Of a stretch of DNA of 64,000 nucleotides, positions 39,929 through 47,630 are shown piece after piece. The notes under the pieces are model-generated. The model saw only the letters and a program-made list of their open reading frames with translations, was not told where the DNA came from and made no database searches. The DNA lies in assembly GCF_036345915.1 (NCBI RefSeq), contig NZ_CP107785.1, positions 2,046,001 through 2,110,000 of the forward strand, read 5' to 3'. Every line of letters begins with the position of its first letter. Position 1 is the stretch's first letter. A program made the translations under genes and the position numbers. The DNA comes from Nocardia sp. NBC_00565. GTDB lineage: Bacteria > Actinomycetota > Actinomycetes > Mycobacteriales > Mycobacteriaceae.

Positions 39929-40045
39929 GTGGGCAAAACGATGGGGCGTGCATGGGCGCGCCCCATTCATACGTCAGGGCGCGTACGAACGAGTTCTGTC
40001 CGTGTACGGATGTCGCGGGCACCGCCACGGCCTACCGTTTTCGGT

Positions 40046-40432
40046 ATGACCTGGAACGACATGAGCACGAGCAGCTTCGCCCTGCTGACTACCTACAAGA
40101 AGGACGGCACGCCGGTCGGCACACCTGTCTGGGTGGCCCCGGACGGCGACGAGATCGTGGTGTGGACCAATCCGAAGACCTGGAAGGTCAAGCGCATCCG
40201 ACGCAACCCGCAGGTCACCCTGCAGGTGTGCGACGGCCGTGGTCGCCCGAAAGGGGATGCGGTATTCGTGGGGAAGGCCGAGGTCCTCGACGCGGCGGGT
40301 ACGCAACGTGTGCGCGAGATCGTCGCCCGCAAGTACGGCATCATCGGGAAACTGCTGATCTGGGGTCACAAGCTGCTCCGGGGTGCGGATGCGTCCGTCG
40401 GCATCGCGATCGCGCCCGCGACCGGCGAATAG
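40046..40432 (+). CDS. PPOX-class F420-dependent protein
   Basis: This 128-residue split-barrel protein (FALLTTYKKDGTPVGTPVWVAPDGDEIVVWTN, TWKVKRIRRNPQVTLQVCD) belongs to the F420/FMN-binding PPOX family (Rv1155/Rv2991-like). Its substrate is unknown. TACCGT lies 7 nt before the ATG (leaderless). It is clearly paralogous to 44267-44656, sharing DGTPVGT, WKVKR and a RVREIVARKYG/RVRKLIKRKYW block. It is convergent with the XRE gene. Confidence 0.85.
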   Translation: MTWNDMSTSSFALLTTYKKDGTPVGTPVWVAPDGDEIVVWTNPKTWKVKRIRRNPQVTLQVCDGRGRPKGDAVFVGKAEVLDAAGTQRVREIVARKYGIIGKLLIWGHKLLRGADASVGIAIAPATGE

Positions 40433-40441
40433 TCGCCCGGT

Positions 40442-40705
40442 TCAGGCGGATTCGGCGAGACCCGCCGAGCACCAGGTCTCGGCGAGTTCCTGCAGCGGAA
40501 TGTCGAGGACGGCGGCCAAGGACACAACCGTGCCGAACGCGGGTGTCGGCAGCCGTCCGGTCTCGATCTTGCGCAGCGTCTCGGGCGAGATTCCGGCCGC
40601 CTGAGCGATCTGCGCCGGATCGCGATCGGCGCGCGCCCCCCGCAGCCGGGCGCCGAGGCGACGACCGGCCTCGACCTGGGCGGGAGTCAGCGGAAGTCGG
40701 ACCAT
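40442..40705 (-). CDS. Small XRE-family transcriptional regulator
   Basis: This 87-residue protein is almost only a helix-turn-helix domain: LGARLRGARADRD, then IAQAAGISPETLRKIETGRLPTPAF, then LAAVLDIPLQELAETW. An 18-bp perfect palindrome lies in its promoter between and over the -10/-35 elements (TAGTCT -10, 6 nt before the ATG), which indicates autoregulation. The same core recurs twice upstream of the methionine aminopeptidase gene at 42576, so that gene is the likely second target. It is the gene downstream of the lipoprotein gene 40744-42372 but has its own promoter. Confidence 0.9.
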   Translation of the reverse strand: MVRLPLTPAQVEAGRRLGARLRGARADRDPAQIAQAAGISPETLRKIETGRLPTPAFGTVVSLAAVLDIPLQELAETWCSAGLAESA

Positions 40706-40720
40706 GACACCAGACTATGG

Positions 40721-40738
40721 GCGGTATTTAAATACCGC
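40721..40738. promoter_or_regulatory. Operator GCGGTATTTAAATACCGC at the XRE promoter
   Basis: This is a perfect 18-bp palindrome. It begins 3 bp upstream of the TAGTCT -10 box (minus strand, 40712-40717) and covers the spacer and -35 region. The core GGTATT-n2-AATACC is repeated at 42515 and 42545. Confidence 0.8.
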
Positions 40739-40743
40739 AAGCA

Positions 40744-42372
40744 TCAGCGGTCGAACTTCACCCGGAACGGTCCGCCGACGCTGTTGAACAGCAGATCGCC
40801 ATTCGGAAGGAACTCGATCAGCGCGTAGGCGCCGTTACCCAGATTGCTCTGTCCGAAGATGGTACGGAGTACCGTCTTTCCGGACTGCCAGTCCAGCCCC
40901 GTCACTTCCCAGCCGTCGGCCTTGGTGTAGCCGTTGACGAATACGACGCCGGATTTGGTGCTCTCGGTGGGCACCATGCTCGTCGACACCACATCGCCGC
41001 GCGACCACAGCGAGGTCCAGTGGTTGTTGGCCGGATCCCATTGGAACCGTTCGATACCCGACGGCGGTGCGAAGACCGGTCCGCCCGCGAGCGCATCGAC
41101 GAGCCGGTCCGGCGAGCCCTGCGGCCGGGCATTGTTGACCACGAACGCGCCGTAGCCGTCCACCACGACCGACTGCTCGCTCTGGATGAACTCCGGTGCC
41201 TGATTCAGCCCGGCGGTGACCTGGATCTGGTCGGCGATCCGGTTGGATTTGGTGCCCGGCTTCGGCTGGAACCCTTCGGGAATGGCGTCGCGCCAGAATG
41301 CGACCAGCTTCATCCGGTTCGCACCGTCGGTGAGCACCACGAGTCGGTCGTCCTTGCCGTAGCCCATGAGCGTCGGGGTCGAGCCGGTGCCGACGCCGAA
41401 CTTCACCGCGGGTGGCTGCTGGCCGAAGTCATACGGTGCTGACCAAGCGCCGTCGCCGGCATCGGCGGAGAGTTTGCTTCCGGTCCACACGATTTTGCGC
41501 ATGATCTTGTCCGAGGCGGCGTAGATACCGCCCGCCTCGTCGACCGCCATCGCATTGGAGACGACCTCGTCCGCGCCGAAGCGGACCCGCTGCGGTTCGC
41601 CCTGCAGACTGCGGTCGATGATCGAGAGCCCGCGCGTGCTGAGCACGGCCAGTTTGCCGTCATAGGTCATGTTCAGGCCGACGACAGTTTCGGGTAGACC
41701 GCCGATACCAGCGCCGGTGCCGAGCCACGGCTTGAAGTCGAGGCTGCGCAGAATCCGGACGCCTGCAGCGGGATTGTTCGCATTCGTCAGGCCGAAGACG
41801 ACGATCTGCGCGTCCTGGGTGACGTAGTAGACCCGATTGTCCTTGTCCACCAGGCTGTAGACGCCATTGGTGATGCGGGTCCAGTCGATGCCCCAGTCGT
41901 TGTGCACGGCGTTCTGCACTTGGCCGACGTCGGTGAAGCTCTGGTCGAGCACCTGGTCGAGGGCCTGCGGCGACAGTGATTTCACCCCGGGCGCGTCCGC
42001 GCGGGCGATCTCGTGGAACATGCCGTCGCCCACCTGGACGTAGACCACGCCCTGGGTGGAGGAGATCCACATGTAGTCCGGATTGGTGGCGGCCAGCGTC
42101 ATGATGTTGACCGGTCCCGAAGCGACGCGCTGCTGCTGCTTCGGATCGAAATGGAACTCGCCCTGCGGTGTTTGAAACGGGAAGGTGTCGGACTGGGCCG
42201 GATCGATGTGGGTGAGGCCGTAGGTCGCGGCAGCGAGGTAGGGATTGCGGGCGGGACCAGAGGCACTGCCGGACTGGTTCTGGTTCTTCGCTGAATCGCC
42301 GCCACAGGCGGGCGTGGCGAGAGCGAGGGCCATCGCGACGGCGACGACAAGAGCTTTGCGACGCATCCTCAT
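40744..42372 (-). CDS. Putative lipoprotein with beta-propeller-like repeats
   Basis: This 542-residue protein starts MRMRRKALVVAVAMALALATPACGGD, a signal peptide ending in a lipobox-like TPAC with a Ser/Asn/Gln-rich linker after the Cys. It is probably a lipoprotein exposed outside the membrane. The rest has repeated strand patterns (DYMWISSTQGVVYVQVGDG, NRVYYVTQDAQIVVFG, GKLAVLSTRGLSIIDR, GGIYAASDKIMRKIVW), suggesting a beta-propeller, but no named family is recognised. It lies between the XRE gene and the divergent aminopeptidase gene and may share the control region with the latter. Confidence 0.72.
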   Translation of the reverse strand: MRMRRKALVVAVAMALALATPACGGDSAKNQNQSGSASGPARNPYLAAATYGLTHIDPAQSDTFPFQTPQGEFHFDPKQQQRVASGPVNIMTLAATNPDYMWISSTQGVVYVQVGDGMFHEIARADAPGVKSLSPQALDQVLDQSFTDVGQVQNAVHNDWGIDWTRITNGVYSLVDKDNRVYYVTQDAQIVVFGLTNANNPAAGVRILRSLDFKPWLGTGAGIGGLPETVVGLNMTYDGKLAVLSTRGLSIIDRSLQGEPQRVRFGADEVVSNAMAVDEAGGIYAASDKIMRKIVWTGSKLSADAGDGAWSAPYDFGQQPPAVKFGVGTGSTPTLMGYGKDDRLVVLTDGANRMKLVAFWRDAIPEGFQPKPGTKSNRIADQIQVTAGLNQAPEFIQSEQSVVVDGYGAFVVNNARPQGSPDRLVDALAGGPVFAPPSGIERFQWDPANNHWTSLWSRGDVVSTSMVPTESTKSGVVFVNGYTKADGWEVTGLDWQSGKTVLRTIFGQSNLGNGAYALIEFLPNGDLLFNSVGGPFRVKFDR

Positions 42373-42514
42373 GAGGTGCTCCTACGTGCGCTGATGGCGC
42401 TGTCGGGCAGTCGATCGGGCGGAACGCATACCGCGCGGGGCGGCGAACAACGATACAACCAGTGCTCTTTTGTGCTCGCGAACATAACACATGGCCAGGT
42501 CAAACGGGGTGAGT

Positions 42515-42528
42515 GGTATTAAAATACC
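42515..42528. promoter_or_regulatory. XRE-type operator 1 GGTATTAAAATACC (over the -35)
   Basis: It matches the core of the XRE promoter palindrome. Its first half occupies the -35 position relative to TATGCT at 42538-42543 (17-bp spacer). Confidence 0.75.
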
Positions 42529-42537
42529 GAAGCGGGC

Positions 42538-42543
42538 TATGCT
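42538..42543 (+). promoter_or_regulatory. -10 box TATGCT of the methionine aminopeptidase gene
   Basis: It sits exactly between the two GGTATTAAAATACC operators. The transcription start would fall inside operator 2. Confidence 0.6.
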
Positions 42544-42544
42544 T

Positions 42545-42558
42545 GGTATTAAAATACC
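42545..42558. promoter_or_regulatory. XRE-type operator 2 GGTATTAAAATACC (over the start site)
   Basis: This is an identical copy of operator 1, displaced by exactly 30 bp, about three helical turns. The two dimers would sit on the same DNA face with the promoter between them. Confidence 0.75.
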
Positions 42559-42575
42559 GATGTGGAGGATTGGGC

Positions 42576-43340
42576 ATGGTGGAGTTGAAGTCGCCGGCGG
42601 AGATCGAACGAATGCGGGTGGCGGGGCGGTTCGTCGCCGAGATCCTGGGCGAACTGCGCGAGCGTGCGCAGGTCGGGGTGAACCTGCTGGAGTTGGAAGC
42701 TCATGTGCGGGAGCGGATTCGGGAGCGTGGCGCGGTGTCGTGCTATTGGGACTACGCACCGTCCTTCGGACGCGGACCGTTCCGCAACACCATCTGCCTA
42801 TCGGTGAACGACGCTGTCCTGCACGGACTTCCGTTCGACTACGTGCTGCGGGACGGGGATGTGCTGAGCATGGATCTGGCGCTCGGCATCGACGGGTGGG
42901 TCGCCGATTCGGCCGTCAGCGTGATCGTCGGCAGTGCCGCGCCGGAGGATCTGCGGCTGGTCAAGGCGACCGAGGATGCGCTGGCGGCGGCCATCGCGGT
43001 AGCGCTGCCGGGCAATCGGATCGGCGATATCTCCGCGGCCATCGCGGAGGTGGCGGGGGCGAACGGCTATCGCGTGAACACCGAATTCGGCGGGCACGGA
43101 CTCGGGCGCACGATGCACGAGGATCCGCACGTGCCCAACGCGGGCCGCGCGGGTCGCGGATTTCCGCTGCGGCCCGGATTGACCATCGCGATCGAGCCGT
43201 GGTTCGCCCGCACCACCGATCGGGTCTATACCGATCCGGACGGCTGGACCATTCGCTCCGCCGACGGCTCGCGCACCGCGCATTCCGAACATACGGTCGC
43301 GATCACCGGGGACGGGCCGCAGGTGCTCACCACCGCGTGA
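42576..43340 (+). CDS. map: Type I methionine aminopeptidase (operator-controlled paralogue)
   Basis: This 254-residue M24 enzyme removes the N-terminal methionine from new proteins. Visible are VSCYWDYAPSFGRGPFRNTICLSVNDAVLHG, the metal-binding Asp residues in LSMDLALGIDGWVADSAV, His in GHGLGRTMHEDP, Glu in IAIEPWF, and the last Glu in AHSEHTVAI. A GTGGAGG site precedes the ATG at 42576. Two XRE-type operators flank its promoter, which is unusual for a housekeeping map gene and suggests a conditional second copy. The main map gene is presumably elsewhere. Confidence 0.9.
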   Translation: MVELKSPAEIERMRVAGRFVAEILGELRERAQVGVNLLELEAHVRERIRERGAVSCYWDYAPSFGRGPFRNTICLSVNDAVLHGLPFDYVLRDGDVLSMDLALGIDGWVADSAVSVIVGSAAPEDLRLVKATEDALAAAIAVALPGNRIGDISAAIAEVAGANGYRVNTEFGGHGLGRTMHEDPHVPNAGRAGRGFPLRPGLTIAIEPWFARTTDRVYTDPDGWTIRSADGSRTAHSEHTVAITGDGPQVLTTA

Positions 43341-43353
43341 AATCCGCGGCTGC

Positions 43354-43743
43354 TCAGTCCGTTTCGGACAACCACTCGGCGAGATCGGTGGCGGCGCGCA
43401 GTTCCGCGGCGACTGCGGCGCGCTCATCCTCCGTGAGCGTCATCGCTCGGAGTTCGGCGCGTAGTTTCTCGGCTCGCTCGGAATCGTCCGTGGCGTCGGC
43501 CAATTCGGTGAGTGCGGCGAGCGCTCGTGCCTTGTCGACCGGCGGCGCTTCCGCGCCGTAGCGGCCCAGGCCGACCTCGAGCACGCGGATCGCGGCCGCG
43601 TCGTCGTTCTTGAAATCGCGCAGGATACGGGCGTTGTCCAGTACCCGTGCCAAGCCTTCGAGTTCGCGGGAGCCGCCGTAGTCGAGCTCCTCGGGCTCGT
43701 CGCGCTGGATGTAGATGATGGTGTTGCCCACCGGGTCGATCAC
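43354..43743 (-). pseudogene. VOC (glyoxalase/bleomycin-resistance-like) protein, N-terminus deleted
   Basis: The frame begins at about VIDPVGNTIIYIQRDE, preceded by SRFS in the same frame. That is the last strand of a VOC domain with its normal FSVIDPxGN motif. A helical tail (RELEGLARVLDNARILRDF..., ending WLSETD) follows, as in full-length actinobacterial relatives that carry a tetratricopeptide-like C-terminus. The first ~100 residues are missing and a stop interrupts the frame shortly upstream. The break point meets the truncated PadR gene head to head. Confidence 0.72.
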
Positions 43744-44257
43744 GCTGAATCTGCTTTGGCCGGGCCGGAATCCCGGGTCGATCTATCACGCGCTCAAACA
43801 GCTGAGCCAGGAGGGCAAGTTGAGCGCGTTCGGAGTCGAGGGGAGCAGCCAGGGACCGGGCCGGACCCTGTTCGAGCTGACCGAGGCGGGGGAGGACGAG
43901 TTCCGCAAACTTATGGACGCGGCGCTGGTCAGCGTCGATATGGAGGAACTCGGCGCGGGTATCGCCTTCATGGACGCGCTCCCCAGCGTGCACGTCATCG
44001 AGAAGTTACGCGAACAACGCCGCAACAGTGCGGCAGTCCGCGACGACCTGCTCGCGATGATCCCGACCTTTCCGGGCCGCTACGAGCCGCCGCATGCGAC
44101 CGATCTGCTCGAGCTCTGGAGCGGGGTGTTCGACAATCTGGCCACTTGGACGGGCGGCATCCTCGCGCGGCTGGAGGCGGGGGAGTATCGGATGGCGGAC
44201 GCCGAATCCCGCGGTTGGCGACCGCATGACGAGCCCGCACCGGCGAACCCGGACTAG
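43715..44257 (+). pseudogene. PadR-family regulator, N-terminus deleted (frame still open)
   Basis: The recognisable part starts at LLWPGRNPGSIYHALKQLSQEGKLS, the recognition-helix end of a PadR winged helix, and continues through the usual C-terminal VirR-like domain (ELTEAGEDEFRKLMDAAL, ATWTGGILARLEAGEY). The first ~30 residues of the domain (helices 1-2) are absent and replaced by 14 residues read from antisense VOC DNA. An ATG at 43715 keeps the frame open (180 residues), but DNA binding is probably lost. The stop TAG is part of the next gene's -10 box. Confidence 0.7.
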
Positions 44258-44266
44258 GCTGCCCTC

Positions 44267-44656
44267 ATGACGACGACGCTCGAGGCGCTCGGCAAGGCCG
44301 ACTACGTGCTGCTGACCACCTTCCGCAAGAACGGCACACCGGTCGGCACCGCGGTGTGGGCCGCCGAAGCCGACGGCAAACTCTATGTCTGGACCGAGAC
44401 CGAGAGCTGGAAAGTGAAGCGCCTGCGCAATAATCCGGCCGTCACCTTGCAGCCGTGCAGTCCGTCGGGTAAGCCACGTGGCGAGGTGATCGAGGGCACC
44501 GGCGTGGTACTCGACGCCGAGGGCACCGAACGCGTCCGCAAGCTGATCAAGCGCAAGTACTGGCTGCTGGGTCCGCTGTTGGTCACGGCCAGCGTCATTC
44601 GCCGCGGCAAGTCCGGCACCATCGGCCTCGAGATCACACCGGCCGCGCAATCGTGA
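44267..44656 (+). CDS. PPOX-class F420-dependent protein (paralogue)
   Basis: This 129-residue split-barrel protein (YVLLTTFRKNGTPVGTAVWAAEADGKLYVWT, WKVKRLRNNPAVTLQPC) is a paralogue of 40046-40432. The family binds F420 or FMN and reduces various substrates, and the specific role is unknown. TAGGCT (44255-44260) lies 6 nt before the ATG and overlaps the stop of the preceding PadR gene, so transcription probably starts at the ATG. It is convergent with tldE. Confidence 0.85.
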   Translation: MTTTLEALGKADYVLLTTFRKNGTPVGTAVWAAEADGKLYVWTETESWKVKRLRNNPAVTLQPCSPSGKPRGEVIEGTGVVLDAEGTERVRKLIKRKYWLLGPLLVTASVIRRGKSGTIGLEITPAAQS

Positions 44657-44691: not shown

Positions 44692-46104
44692 TCAGGTCGC
44701 CTGGCTGACCGATGACATGTGGAAGTCCGGAATTCGCAACGGCGGCATGGCGGTTCGGGTGAACCAGTCCTTCCATTCGCGGGGCAGGGTGGTCTCGGTG
44801 GCGCCCGCCTCGGTGGCGCGTCGGAGCAGGTCGATCGGGCTCTCGTTGAACCGGAAGTTGTTGACGGCCGCGGTGACCTCGCCGTTCTCGACGAGGTAGA
44901 CCCCGTCGCGGGTGAGGCCGGTGAGCAACAGCGTCGCCGGATCGACTTCGCGGATGTACCAGAGCGTGGTCAGCAGCAGGCCGCGCTCGGTGTTCGCGAT
45001 CATTGTGTCGAGTGTCGTCCCCGACCCTCCGGTGAGTAGCAGGTTCGCACCGGGAACCGTTGCGGTGGCACCGAATTCGGCGGCGGTGGCGCGCGGGTAG
45101 ACGAGAGATTCGATGACGCCCGCACGCAACCAATCGACGCGTTCGGCCGGCATGCCGTTGTCGAAGACCGACAGTGACTCCGAGGACGAGGGCGTCGCGA
45201 CGAACGGGCGGTATTCGAGTCCGTCGGCGCTGGGATCGGAGAAGAGCGTCAGCGGAATCGCACTGAGCCGCTCGCCGATTCGGGTGCCGCCCGCCTTCGC
45301 GAAGGCATTGTGACCTTCGTGTGCCCCCCGGCCTTCCATGGACCAGGCCAGGTAGATCATCAGATCCGCGACCGCCGAAGGCGGCAGCAGGGTTTCATAG
45401 CGCCCCGCGGGCAGATCCACCCGGCGCTTGGACCAATCCAGTCGCCGCGACAGCTCACTGAGCAGACCGGGCACGTCGACATCGGTGAAGTCCGCGGTGC
45501 CGACCCCGACCCACGCACTCGCCAGATCCGTGCCCGCGCTGCGCTTTCCATTGATCTCCACCGAACCCGTCGGCTGCACGAAGCGACGGCGGATGCCGGT
45601 GGAGGTGCCCAGCCAGGTGGTGTGCATCTGGTGGTGCGCGAAACCGTAGAGCCGGTCGGTGCCGTCGAATCCGCCCGCCAGATCCCGCGCCACCTCGGTG
45701 AAGACCTCGATGCCGGTGCTGCCCGGCGCGGATGCCCAATCGGCGGTGTCGTTGCGCGCGCCCGGCACGCCGTCGGCGCCATCGGGCGTCAGCAGCGGCA
45801 TCGCGTCCTTGGCAGGTTCGGCGGTGCGGGCTGCGTTCTCGCTGGCCCGGACCACCGCCTCGATATCGGCGGGGTCGACGCTGGTGGAGCTGACGCTGCC
45901 GACGCGTGCGGAGTTCGGGCCCTCGCGGAAAATCGAAATGACCGCCCAGTCACGGGAGATCGAGGAACCGTTGGTGGTCATCGAGTTGCCCGCCCAGCGC
46001 AGCGACGCCTCGTGCGCGTCGGTGACGATCACCATCGCCTCGTCCGCGCGCGAGAGCGCCAGCGCCTGCTCGACGACCGCGCCCGCCGGCGTCATCGGAT
46101 TCAC
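44692..46104 (-). CDS. tldE: TldD/PmbA-family protein TldE (metalloprotease partner)
   Basis: This 470-residue protein is the non-catalytic partner of TldD, with which it forms a heterodimeric metalloprotease in other bacteria. It has the PmbA/TldE order of motifs (ALRWAGNSMTTNGSS-like start, RRVDLPAGRYETLLPPSAVADLM, LLLTTLWYIREVDP, LTGLTRDGVYLVENGEV) and lacks the HExxxH motif. The GTG start overlaps the tldD stop (GTGA), so the two are co-translated. Their natural substrates in actinobacteria are not known. Confidence 0.92.
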   Translation of the reverse strand: MNPMTPAGAVVEQALALSRADEAMVIVTDAHEASLRWAGNSMTTNGSSISRDWAVISIFREGPNSARVGSVSSTSVDPADIEAVVRASENAARTAEPAKDAMPLLTPDGADGVPGARNDTADWASAPGSTGIEVFTEVARDLAGGFDGTDRLYGFAHHQMHTTWLGTSTGIRRRFVQPTGSVEINGKRSAGTDLASAWVGVGTADFTDVDVPGLLSELSRRLDWSKRRVDLPAGRYETLLPPSAVADLMIYLAWSMEGRGAHEGHNAFAKAGGTRIGERLSAIPLTLFSDPSADGLEYRPFVATPSSSESLSVFDNGMPAERVDWLRAGVIESLVYPRATAAEFGATATVPGANLLLTGGSGTTLDTMIANTERGLLLTTLWYIREVDPATLLLTGLTRDGVYLVENGEVTAAVNNFRFNESPIDLLRRATEAGATETTLPREWKDWFTRTAMPPLRIPDFHMSSVSQAT

Positions 46105-47630
46105 GCCCCTGCCTCCGTCCGGGTGTTCAGAATATTGATGCCGCGCACCAGGACCGCCGGGCAGCCGTGGCTGACCGCCGCGACCTGGCCGGGTTGGGCC
46201 TTTCCGCAGTTGAACGCGCCGCCGAGCCGCCAGGTGGACGGGCCGCCGACCGCCTCCATCGAACCCCAGAAGTCGGTGGTGGTGGCCTGATAGGCGACAT
46301 CGCGCAGCTGGCCGTCGAGCTGGCCGTCGCGGATGCGGAAGAAGCGCTGACCGGTGAACTGGAAGTTGTAGCGCTGCATATCGATCGACCACGACTTGTC
46401 GCCGACGATGTAGATGCCGTTCTCGACTCGGGAGATGAGTTCAGCGGTGCTGGTGTCGTTGTCGGGGTCCGGTTGCAGCGAGACGTTGGCCATGCGCTGG
46501 ATCGGCACATGGTGCGGGGAGTCGGCGTAGGAGCAGCCGTTCGAGCGATCCAGGCCCAGGCGCGGGGCGAAGACGCGGTCGAGTTGGTAGCCGACCAGCA
46601 CGCCGTCGCGGACCAGATCCCAGCGCTGCCCGGCAACCCCCTCGTCGTCGTAGCCGACCGAGGCGAGGCCGTGCACCTCGGTGCGGTCACCGGTGACGTG
46701 CATGATCGGGGTGCCGTACCGCAGCGTGCCGAGTTTGTCCGGCGTGGCGAACGAGGTACCCGCATAGGCGGATTCGTAGCCGATGGCGCGGTCGTATTCA
46801 GTGGCGTGACCGATGGATTCGTGGATGGTCAGCCACAGATTGGTCGGGTCTATCACCAGGTCGGTCGGACCCGCTTCGACGCTGGGCGCCTTCACCTTCT
46901 CGGCCAGCCATCCCGGGATCTGCGTGAGTTCCGCACTCCAATCCCAGATTCCGTCCGCGCCGGTGACGTACTCCCATCCGCGTCCCGCCGGGGCGGCGAG
47001 GGTGCGCATGGTCTCGAAGACGCCGGCTGCGGCGTCCACCGTGATCGCCTCGAGCTGCGGATGCAGGCGCACCCGCTGCTGGGTGATCGCGGAACCGGCG
47101 GTGTCGGCATAGAAGGTCTGTTCCTTGACCTGCAGTACCGAGGCGGTGACGTGGTCGACGCCGCCGGCGGCGGACAGCCGCCCCGAATAGTCCTGCAGCA
47201 GTGCGACCTTGTCGGTGGTCGGCACCGTGAACGGGTCCAGGTCGTAGGCCGAGACCCAGTGCGCGTTGTCGTAGCGAGGTTCGTCGGCGAGTTCGACGCG
47301 TTCGCGATTGAGGGCACGCAGGGTGGTCGCCACCGTGACCGCCCGGCGCGCCACCTCGGCGGCGGTGTCCGGGGTCAGCGCGGCGTGCGAGGCGAAACCC
47401 CAGGTGCCGTCGACGATCACGCGCACGGCGAAGCCGAGGTCGGTGGCATTACTGATCGCCTCGACCCGGCCGTCGCGCAAGCGGATCGACTGGGTGACCA
47501 GCCGGTGCACCCGCAGATCCGCGTGCTGGGCGCCCGCCGCGCGCGCCGCGGACAGCGCGGCGTCGGCGAGCGCGTGCAGTGGTAACGCAAGGAACTCGGC
47601 GTCCACATCTTTGGATGTCGCGATGCTCAC
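46101..47630 (-). CDS. tldD: Metalloprotease TldD
   Basis: This 509-residue zinc metalloprotease subunit has the catalytic HESIGH at residues 270-275, followed by the characteristic GHATEYDRAIGYESAYAGTSFA. The TldD C-terminal features GCSYADSPHHVPIQRM and GGAFNCGKAQPGQ are also present. TldD/TldE cleave unfolded peptides and take part in maturation of ribosomally made peptides such as microcin B17. The GTG at 47630 lies 7 nt after TACGTT on this strand (leaderless). It is first in a tldD-tldE operon. Confidence 0.93.
   Translation of the reverse strand: MSIATSKDVDAEFLALPLHALADAALSAARAAGAQHADLRVHRLVTQSIRLRDGRVEAISNATDLGFAVRVIVDGTWGFASHAALTPDTAAEVARRAVTVATTLRALNRERVELADEPRYDNAHWVSAYDLDPFTVPTTDKVALLQDYSGRLSAAGGVDHVTASVLQVKEQTFYADTAGSAITQQRVRLHPQLEAITVDAAAGVFETMRTLAAPAGRGWEYVTGADGIWDWSAELTQIPGWLAEKVKAPSVEAGPTDLVIDPTNLWLTIHESIGHATEYDRAIGYESAYAGTSFATPDKLGTLRYGTPIMHVTGDRTEVHGLASVGYDDEGVAGQRWDLVRDGVLVGYQLDRVFAPRLGLDRSNGCSYADSPHHVPIQRMANVSLQPDPDNDTSTAELISRVENGIYIVGDKSWSIDMQRYNFQFTGQRFFRIRDGQLDGQLRDVAYQATTTDFWGSMEAVGGPSTWRLGGAFNCGKAQPGQVAAVSHGCPAVLVRGINILNTRTEAGA

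Follow-up and report, generated by a model that had tools for sequence, protein, structure and literature searches.

The window analyzed here, a stretch of 64,000 nucleotides from Nocardia sp. NBC_00565, carries xre, a gene for a small regulator of the XRE family, and map, a gene for an additional methionyl aminopeptidase (MetAP); XRE and Map denote the two products. Among described systems, DdrO and IrrE of Deinococcus likewise combine an XRE-type repressor with a metallopeptidase, and XRE matched the DdrO profile with E values of 8.5e-05 to 9.9e-04. IrrE reportedly cleaves its repressor DdrO, whereas Map is a MetAP of the M24 family and not an IrrE-type protease, so that the pair does not belong to the DdrO/IrrE type. 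Controller proteins of restriction-modification systems use paired operators and regulate their own synthesis. Three of them, C.BclI, C.AhdI and C.Esp1396I, share the small one-domain XRE fold according to structural matches, but the partner of XRE is a MetAP.

A solved structure resembling XRE is that of a putative XRE-family transcriptional regulator of Rhodococcus sp. (PDB 2ofy), for which the open-access literature yielded neither a function nor an operator nor any link to a MetAP; in the accessible part of one report, 2ofy was used as a globular dimer in simulations (PMC9861041). An xre-reg and a meth-ap gene of Saccharopolyspora erythraea have been named in passing in one neighbourhood near sace_3599, in a report whose accessible part describes no regulation, operator or gene order (PMC7435583). 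Resistant second MetAPs of inhibitor producers illustrate that an extra MetAP is a possible answer to natural inhibitors. Self-resistance of the bengamide producer is reportedly due to a resistant MetAP. A self-resistance mechanism for bengamide is mentioned in the accessible part of another report (PMC6022970). In contrast to these enzymes, the MetAP described here is predicted to be switched separately, by a repressor of its own, in 22 named genera, and no inhibitor is known. No paper on this regulator-MetAP module was found in the open-access literature, a scope mostly without subscription papers.

Operators, promoters and proteins of the xre-map pair

The xre-map pair very probably forms a dedicated regulator-target module, in which XRE would repress the extra MetAP through operators of the form GGTAT-N4-ATACC. 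The sequence GCGGTATTTAAATACCGC is an 18-bp palindrome with the core at 40723 to 40736 over the promoter of xre, and GGTATTAAAATACC occurs twice upstream of map at a distance of 30 bp, with TATGCT between both copies (Table 1). The palindrome over the xre promoter, the positions of the repeat and the TATGCT motif had been described in an earlier sequence-only reading, and all were confirmed by inspection of the sequence and by motif search. With up to two mismatches allowed, the strict motif GGTATTNNAATACC had three matches in the window, all of them exact, at an expectation of 0.36, and none of 100 shuffles reached three. In the complete genome of 9,711,624 bases, the exact matches were again only these three at xre and map, spanning 1.84 kb, and a search with up to one mismatch yielded 9 matches versus none for the reversed control pattern. 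The same reading had named many unrelated copies in the genome as an argument against its proposal, and none appeared with the strict motif, which also leaves a wider regulon unsupported at this stringency. The looser form GGTATNNNNATACC had seven matches versus one for the control, four of them beyond the copies at xre and map, and these extra copies had mostly GC-rich centres among the matches listed.

The start codon ATG of xre is located at position 40705 on the minus strand and the predicted −10 motif TAGTCT at −12 to −7. Of 115 intergenic regions, 114 contained a TANNNT motif whose position relative to the start of xre was −12 or −13, compared with a mean of 1.8 and at most 6 after shuffling, and 90 of the 115 contained a −35 motif with TTG and a spacer of 17 or 18 bp. 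Because the −10 motif ends so close to the ATG and its position is conserved, the xre mRNA looks leaderless. On the other side, 81 of 96 loci had a TANNNT motif directed toward map that was flanked by the two sites nearest to this gene; shuffling gave a mean of 8.4 and at most 17. The proximal operator was 14 to 22 bp before xre in 90 of the 103 loci with at least one exact site, so that autoregulation of xre looks common but optional rather than universal. Of the earlier proposal, the shared operator and XRE as the likely repressor of map, and at this locus of itself, are supported in silico; autoregulation does not extend to all loci.

XRE contains a Cro/CI-type helix-turn-helix (HTH) domain and consists of this DNA-binding domain alone, without a ligand domain. 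Its predicted structure (pLDDT confidence score 92.4) matched PDB 2ofy. In 54 aligned sequences, M1, V2, R3 and P5 were invariant, as were the HTH residues E42, T43, L44, R45 and K46.

Map was assigned to the type I MetAPs by TIGR00500 with 240.5 bits (cut-off 171.35) and to Peptidase_M24 with 135.4 bits (cut-off 23). The residues D100, D111, H174, E207 and E238, which we take to be the metal ligands, and H83 and H181, presumably the catalytic histidines, were invariant in 20 aligned sequences and align with both paralogues. These two further type I MetAPs of the genome are 42% and 32% identical to Map and also above the TIGR00500 cut-off. Both possess a short GYxGF loop, while the subfamily of Map has a longer active-site segment, here ending with SFGRGPF, with the metal ligands intact; a changed preference for substrates or inhibitors compared with the paralogues is plausible. 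A tree of 52 rows, labelled per locus and including as L202 the second, non-adjacent Map of the XRE-positive genome G399, required four changes of the XRE label, at least three of which were forced by well-supported branches. This rules out a single clade of XRE-linked Maps, and the tree points to several gains or losses of the link to XRE among members of the subfamily.

Conservation and rearrangement of the pair

The strict motif was present in 33 of 60 genomes searched, own genome included, with 58 sites versus 3 for the reversed control. All but two of the sites (L005, L157) were at xre and/or map, 56 in total. It was found in 30 of 35 other genomes of the same genus, and four of the five genomes without the motif kept xre; in the remaining one, G015 (78% complete), neither the strict motif nor xre nor map was detected. 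A search of 396 genomes of the phylum gave an XRE match (threshold 1e-12) in 23 and a member of the Map subfamily (1e-75) in 57, including all of the 23. In 21 of these 23 genomes, xre and map were divergent neighbours 32 to 94 bp apart, usually with palindromes of this kind between them. Co-occurrence of the pair and the motif in other actinobacteria was a check named in the sequence-only reading, and its outcome did not refute the proposal.

Named loci were selected by means of two peptides, PETLRKIE and MVRLPLTPA. Of 555, the best 80 were used, a choice biased toward close relatives. They comprised 74 divergent neighbours, 17 to 180 bp apart, and represented 22 named actinomycete genera, among them Nocardia, Actinomadura, Pseudonocardia, Saccharopolyspora, Frankia, Nonomuraea, Phytohabitans and Streptomyces. 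The count of exact GGTATNNNNATACC sites covered 116 distinct divergent pairs. It did not include L125, where both genes are on the same strand, L103 and L138 with their long gaps, six duplicates, and any locus that had no Map in reach. Three sites were present in 12 pairs, two in 73 and a single one in 18, and the other 13 had no exact site. The spacing of neighbouring sites (n = 108) was 28 to 34 bp in 85 cases and 21 to 23 bp in 14.

A diverged box of a Streptomyces type, with up to one mismatch, was found in 13 of 15 genomes at 14 sites, all about 40 bp or less upstream of map. Since this pattern was derived from these same loci, its presence there is given by construction, and only its rarity elsewhere is informative. 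In the Streptomyces-type loci L042, L044, L049, L051 and L213 to L216, the intergenic region is compact, with a length of 32 bp in several cases, and contains back-to-back ATACC-GGTAT half-sites in place of the usual operator.

The pair is rearranged in ten genomes. It is separated by a lipoprotein insertion in the own genome and N. vinacea (L103), by about 39 kb in N. pseudovaccinii (L092/L185) and G016, by about 4.5 kb in N. lijiangensis (L064/L183), about 1 kb in G032 and 1.4 kb in Kitasatospora (L138); both genes are on the same strand in Tsukamurella (L125) and on different contigs of draft assemblies in N. amikacinitolerans (L060/L184) and G302. An operator was retained at map in all ten: eight genomes have two exact sites there, L125 has a single exact site and G302 a diverged form. 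At xre, an operator was retained in six, five times exact and once, on the xre side of G302 (L054), as a diverged form judged by eye. The operator nearest to map was 73 bp (N. lijiangensis), 84 bp (N. amikacinitolerans) and 51 bp (Kitasatospora) before the start, compared with the usual 10 to 30 bp.

Upstream regions were read for 29 loci of the Map subfamily, the closer part of 58 Map matches, together with the two paralogues of the own genome. None of the 13 Map loci without an adjacent XRE contained an exact site; 12 of these were from genomes without an XRE match at 1e-12, and one was the second Map of G399, the other Map of which is beside XRE. The Map loci without an adjacent XRE, L197 to L205, L208 to L210 and L212, belong to other actinobacterial families. 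Sites that are kept after unlinking of the genes and absent without XRE point to XRE as the binder and to map as the constant target, with autorepression looking like an optional part.

Regulatory model and alternative explanations

In the model of a dedicated module, an XRE dimer would bind to the GGTAT-N4-ATACC operators. Two of these, at a distance of roughly two to three helical turns in most cases, would bracket the −10 motif of map, and bound XRE would exclude the RNA polymerase and keep map off. The operator over the −35 motif of xre, which is usual and present here, would close an autorepression loop, and a signal inactivating XRE would lead to a joint increase of map and xre. Because XRE has only a DNA-binding domain, its release would need loss of XRE, a partner, or a change to the XRE protein itself. 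Map, with its different active-site loop, may then serve as a spare or alternative MetAP that is made only under certain conditions. Several observations weigh against this model. Four genomes of the same genus hold xre without the strict motif (G016, G030, G031, G032), with looser-form sites at map in G016, G031 and G032 and one such site in the xre-map gap of G030. For the 13 pairs without an exact site, a diverged operator must be assumed, and 15 of the 96 twin-site loci had no recognisable −10 motif between the sites. The spacing does not always correspond to whole helical turns, 28 bp being common, and the missing sites in the 13 XRE-less Map loci are partly confounded by phylogeny.

The small size and autoregulation of XRE would also suit an activator-repressor like the restriction-modification controllers, which would stimulate map from one operator and shut it off from a second to produce a timed pulse. 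Both map sites, however, overlap the core promoter at the −35 position and the start, where blocking is expected rather than help, and a site also covers the −35 motif or spacer of xre in 90 of the 103 loci, which makes this dual role quite improbable. Even less probable is binding of the palindromes by another regulator with XRE as a mere neighbour. Binding of XRE to them is a prediction, and the xre promoter is without a site of its own in the other 13 of the 103 loci, but a foreign regulator would not account for the absence of sites from the Map relatives without an adjacent XRE, nor for sites that stay with both genes after their separation, and the invariant HTH residues fit to the constant GGTAT half-site. 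A small autoregulated XRE with a weak match to a Y4mF/HipB-type model and with HipB among the structural matches might finally recall an antitoxin in an addiction-like module. That model scored 19.4 bits versus a cut-off of 71.65, so XRE is not a member of the family, and the partner gene encodes an intact MetAP that has two paralogues, a kind of gene that should normally be beneficial; the same Map subfamily occurs without XRE in 12 of the genomes examined. An antitoxin function is thus extremely improbable, and repression of map by XRE is the preferred reading.

The N-terminus of XRE deserves separate consideration. All 117 distinct sequences start with Met-Val-Arg, including the 68 that do not contain MVRLPLTPA, and since the codons for Val and Arg vary, the constraint acts on the protein. 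The second residue of Map at the same loci is variable (V 64, I 48, L 4, T 1). Valine in second position is close to the upper limit of residue size that permits removal of methionine. The invariant start precedes the first helix, which begins with residue 8 of the model, and in chain B of 2ofy, with 80 residues and an aligned range of 5 to 84, residues 1 to 4 were probably not modelled, as for a flexible arm. XRE itself might sense the excision of its own methionine, although this is unlikely. Only XRE with a free N-terminal valine would clamp the DNA well; if the activity of deformylase or MetAP ran short, (formyl-)methionine would remain on newly made XRE, which would release map and restore the activity. 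If true, this would be a feedback loop that gauges N-terminal methionine excision directly. Copies of XRE away from map (L054, L057, L148) nevertheless start with MVR too, so that a plain DNA-contacting arm, the ordinary explanation, accounts for the same facts.

Neighbouring genes and meaning of the probable module

Table 1. Features of the xre-map region, in positions of the window
Feature	Position	Strand	Basis
xre, 87-residue one-domain XRE-family regulator, predicted repressor	40442..40705	−	
Predicted xre −10, TAGTCT, 6 bases before ATG	40712..40717	−	Read from sequence
Operator at xre, 18-bp palindrome over −35 and spacer	40721..40738	.	Sequence, motif search
Predicted xre −35, TTGCGG, 17-bp spacer	40735..40740	−	Read from sequence
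Putative lipoprotein gene, 542 aa, between xre and map	40744..42372	−	No Pfam or NCBIfam match
map operator, distal, −35 position	42515..42528	.	Sequence, motif search
Predicted map −10, TATGCT, between two operators	42538..42543	+	Read from sequence
map operator, proximal, over predicted transcription start	42545..42558	.	Sequence, motif search
map, 254-aa type I methionyl aminopeptidase, one of three in the genome	42576..43340	+	TIGR00500, ligands, paralogues

The lipoprotein gene had been suggested to belong to the same unit as map. Homologues were present in only 4 of 34 genomes of the same genus, the own included; they were away from the xre-map pair in G013 and G024, which leaves the own genome and G009 as the only ones of this set with the gene beside map. 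N. vinacea L103 also has it there. Scarcity and placement speak against membership in the module, and the gene is probably a lineage-specific insertion, incidental to it. Profile searches with ten proteins encoded between 37256 and 46392 revealed no restriction gene; of these ten, the lipoprotein and the product of the open reading frame (ORF) at 43354-43743 matched nothing. Two PNPOx-family paralogues (46% identity over 124 residues), at 39929-40432 (+) and 44267-44656 (+), flank the region in the same orientation. The ORFs at 43354-43743 (−) and 43715-44257 (+) are arranged head-to-head with overlapping starts. One of this pair is PadR-like, with a match limited to positions 30 to 74 of the 75 positions of the profile; because the match begins only at position 30, the 5' part may have disappeared at an old junction. 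A gene for a PmbA/TldD-type metallopeptidase follows at 44692-46392 (−), 1.4 kb past map.

Methionine excision is commonly regarded as a constitutive housekeeping process. Control of an extra MetAP by a repressor and operators of its own would imply conditions under which the ordinary MetAPs fall short, perhaps the presence of natural inhibitors of deformylase or MetAP, and the map promoter offers a ready reporter for finding the inducing signal. The module is also relevant to drugs directed at MetAP and deformylase, because an inducible spare enzyme could blunt the action of inhibitors.
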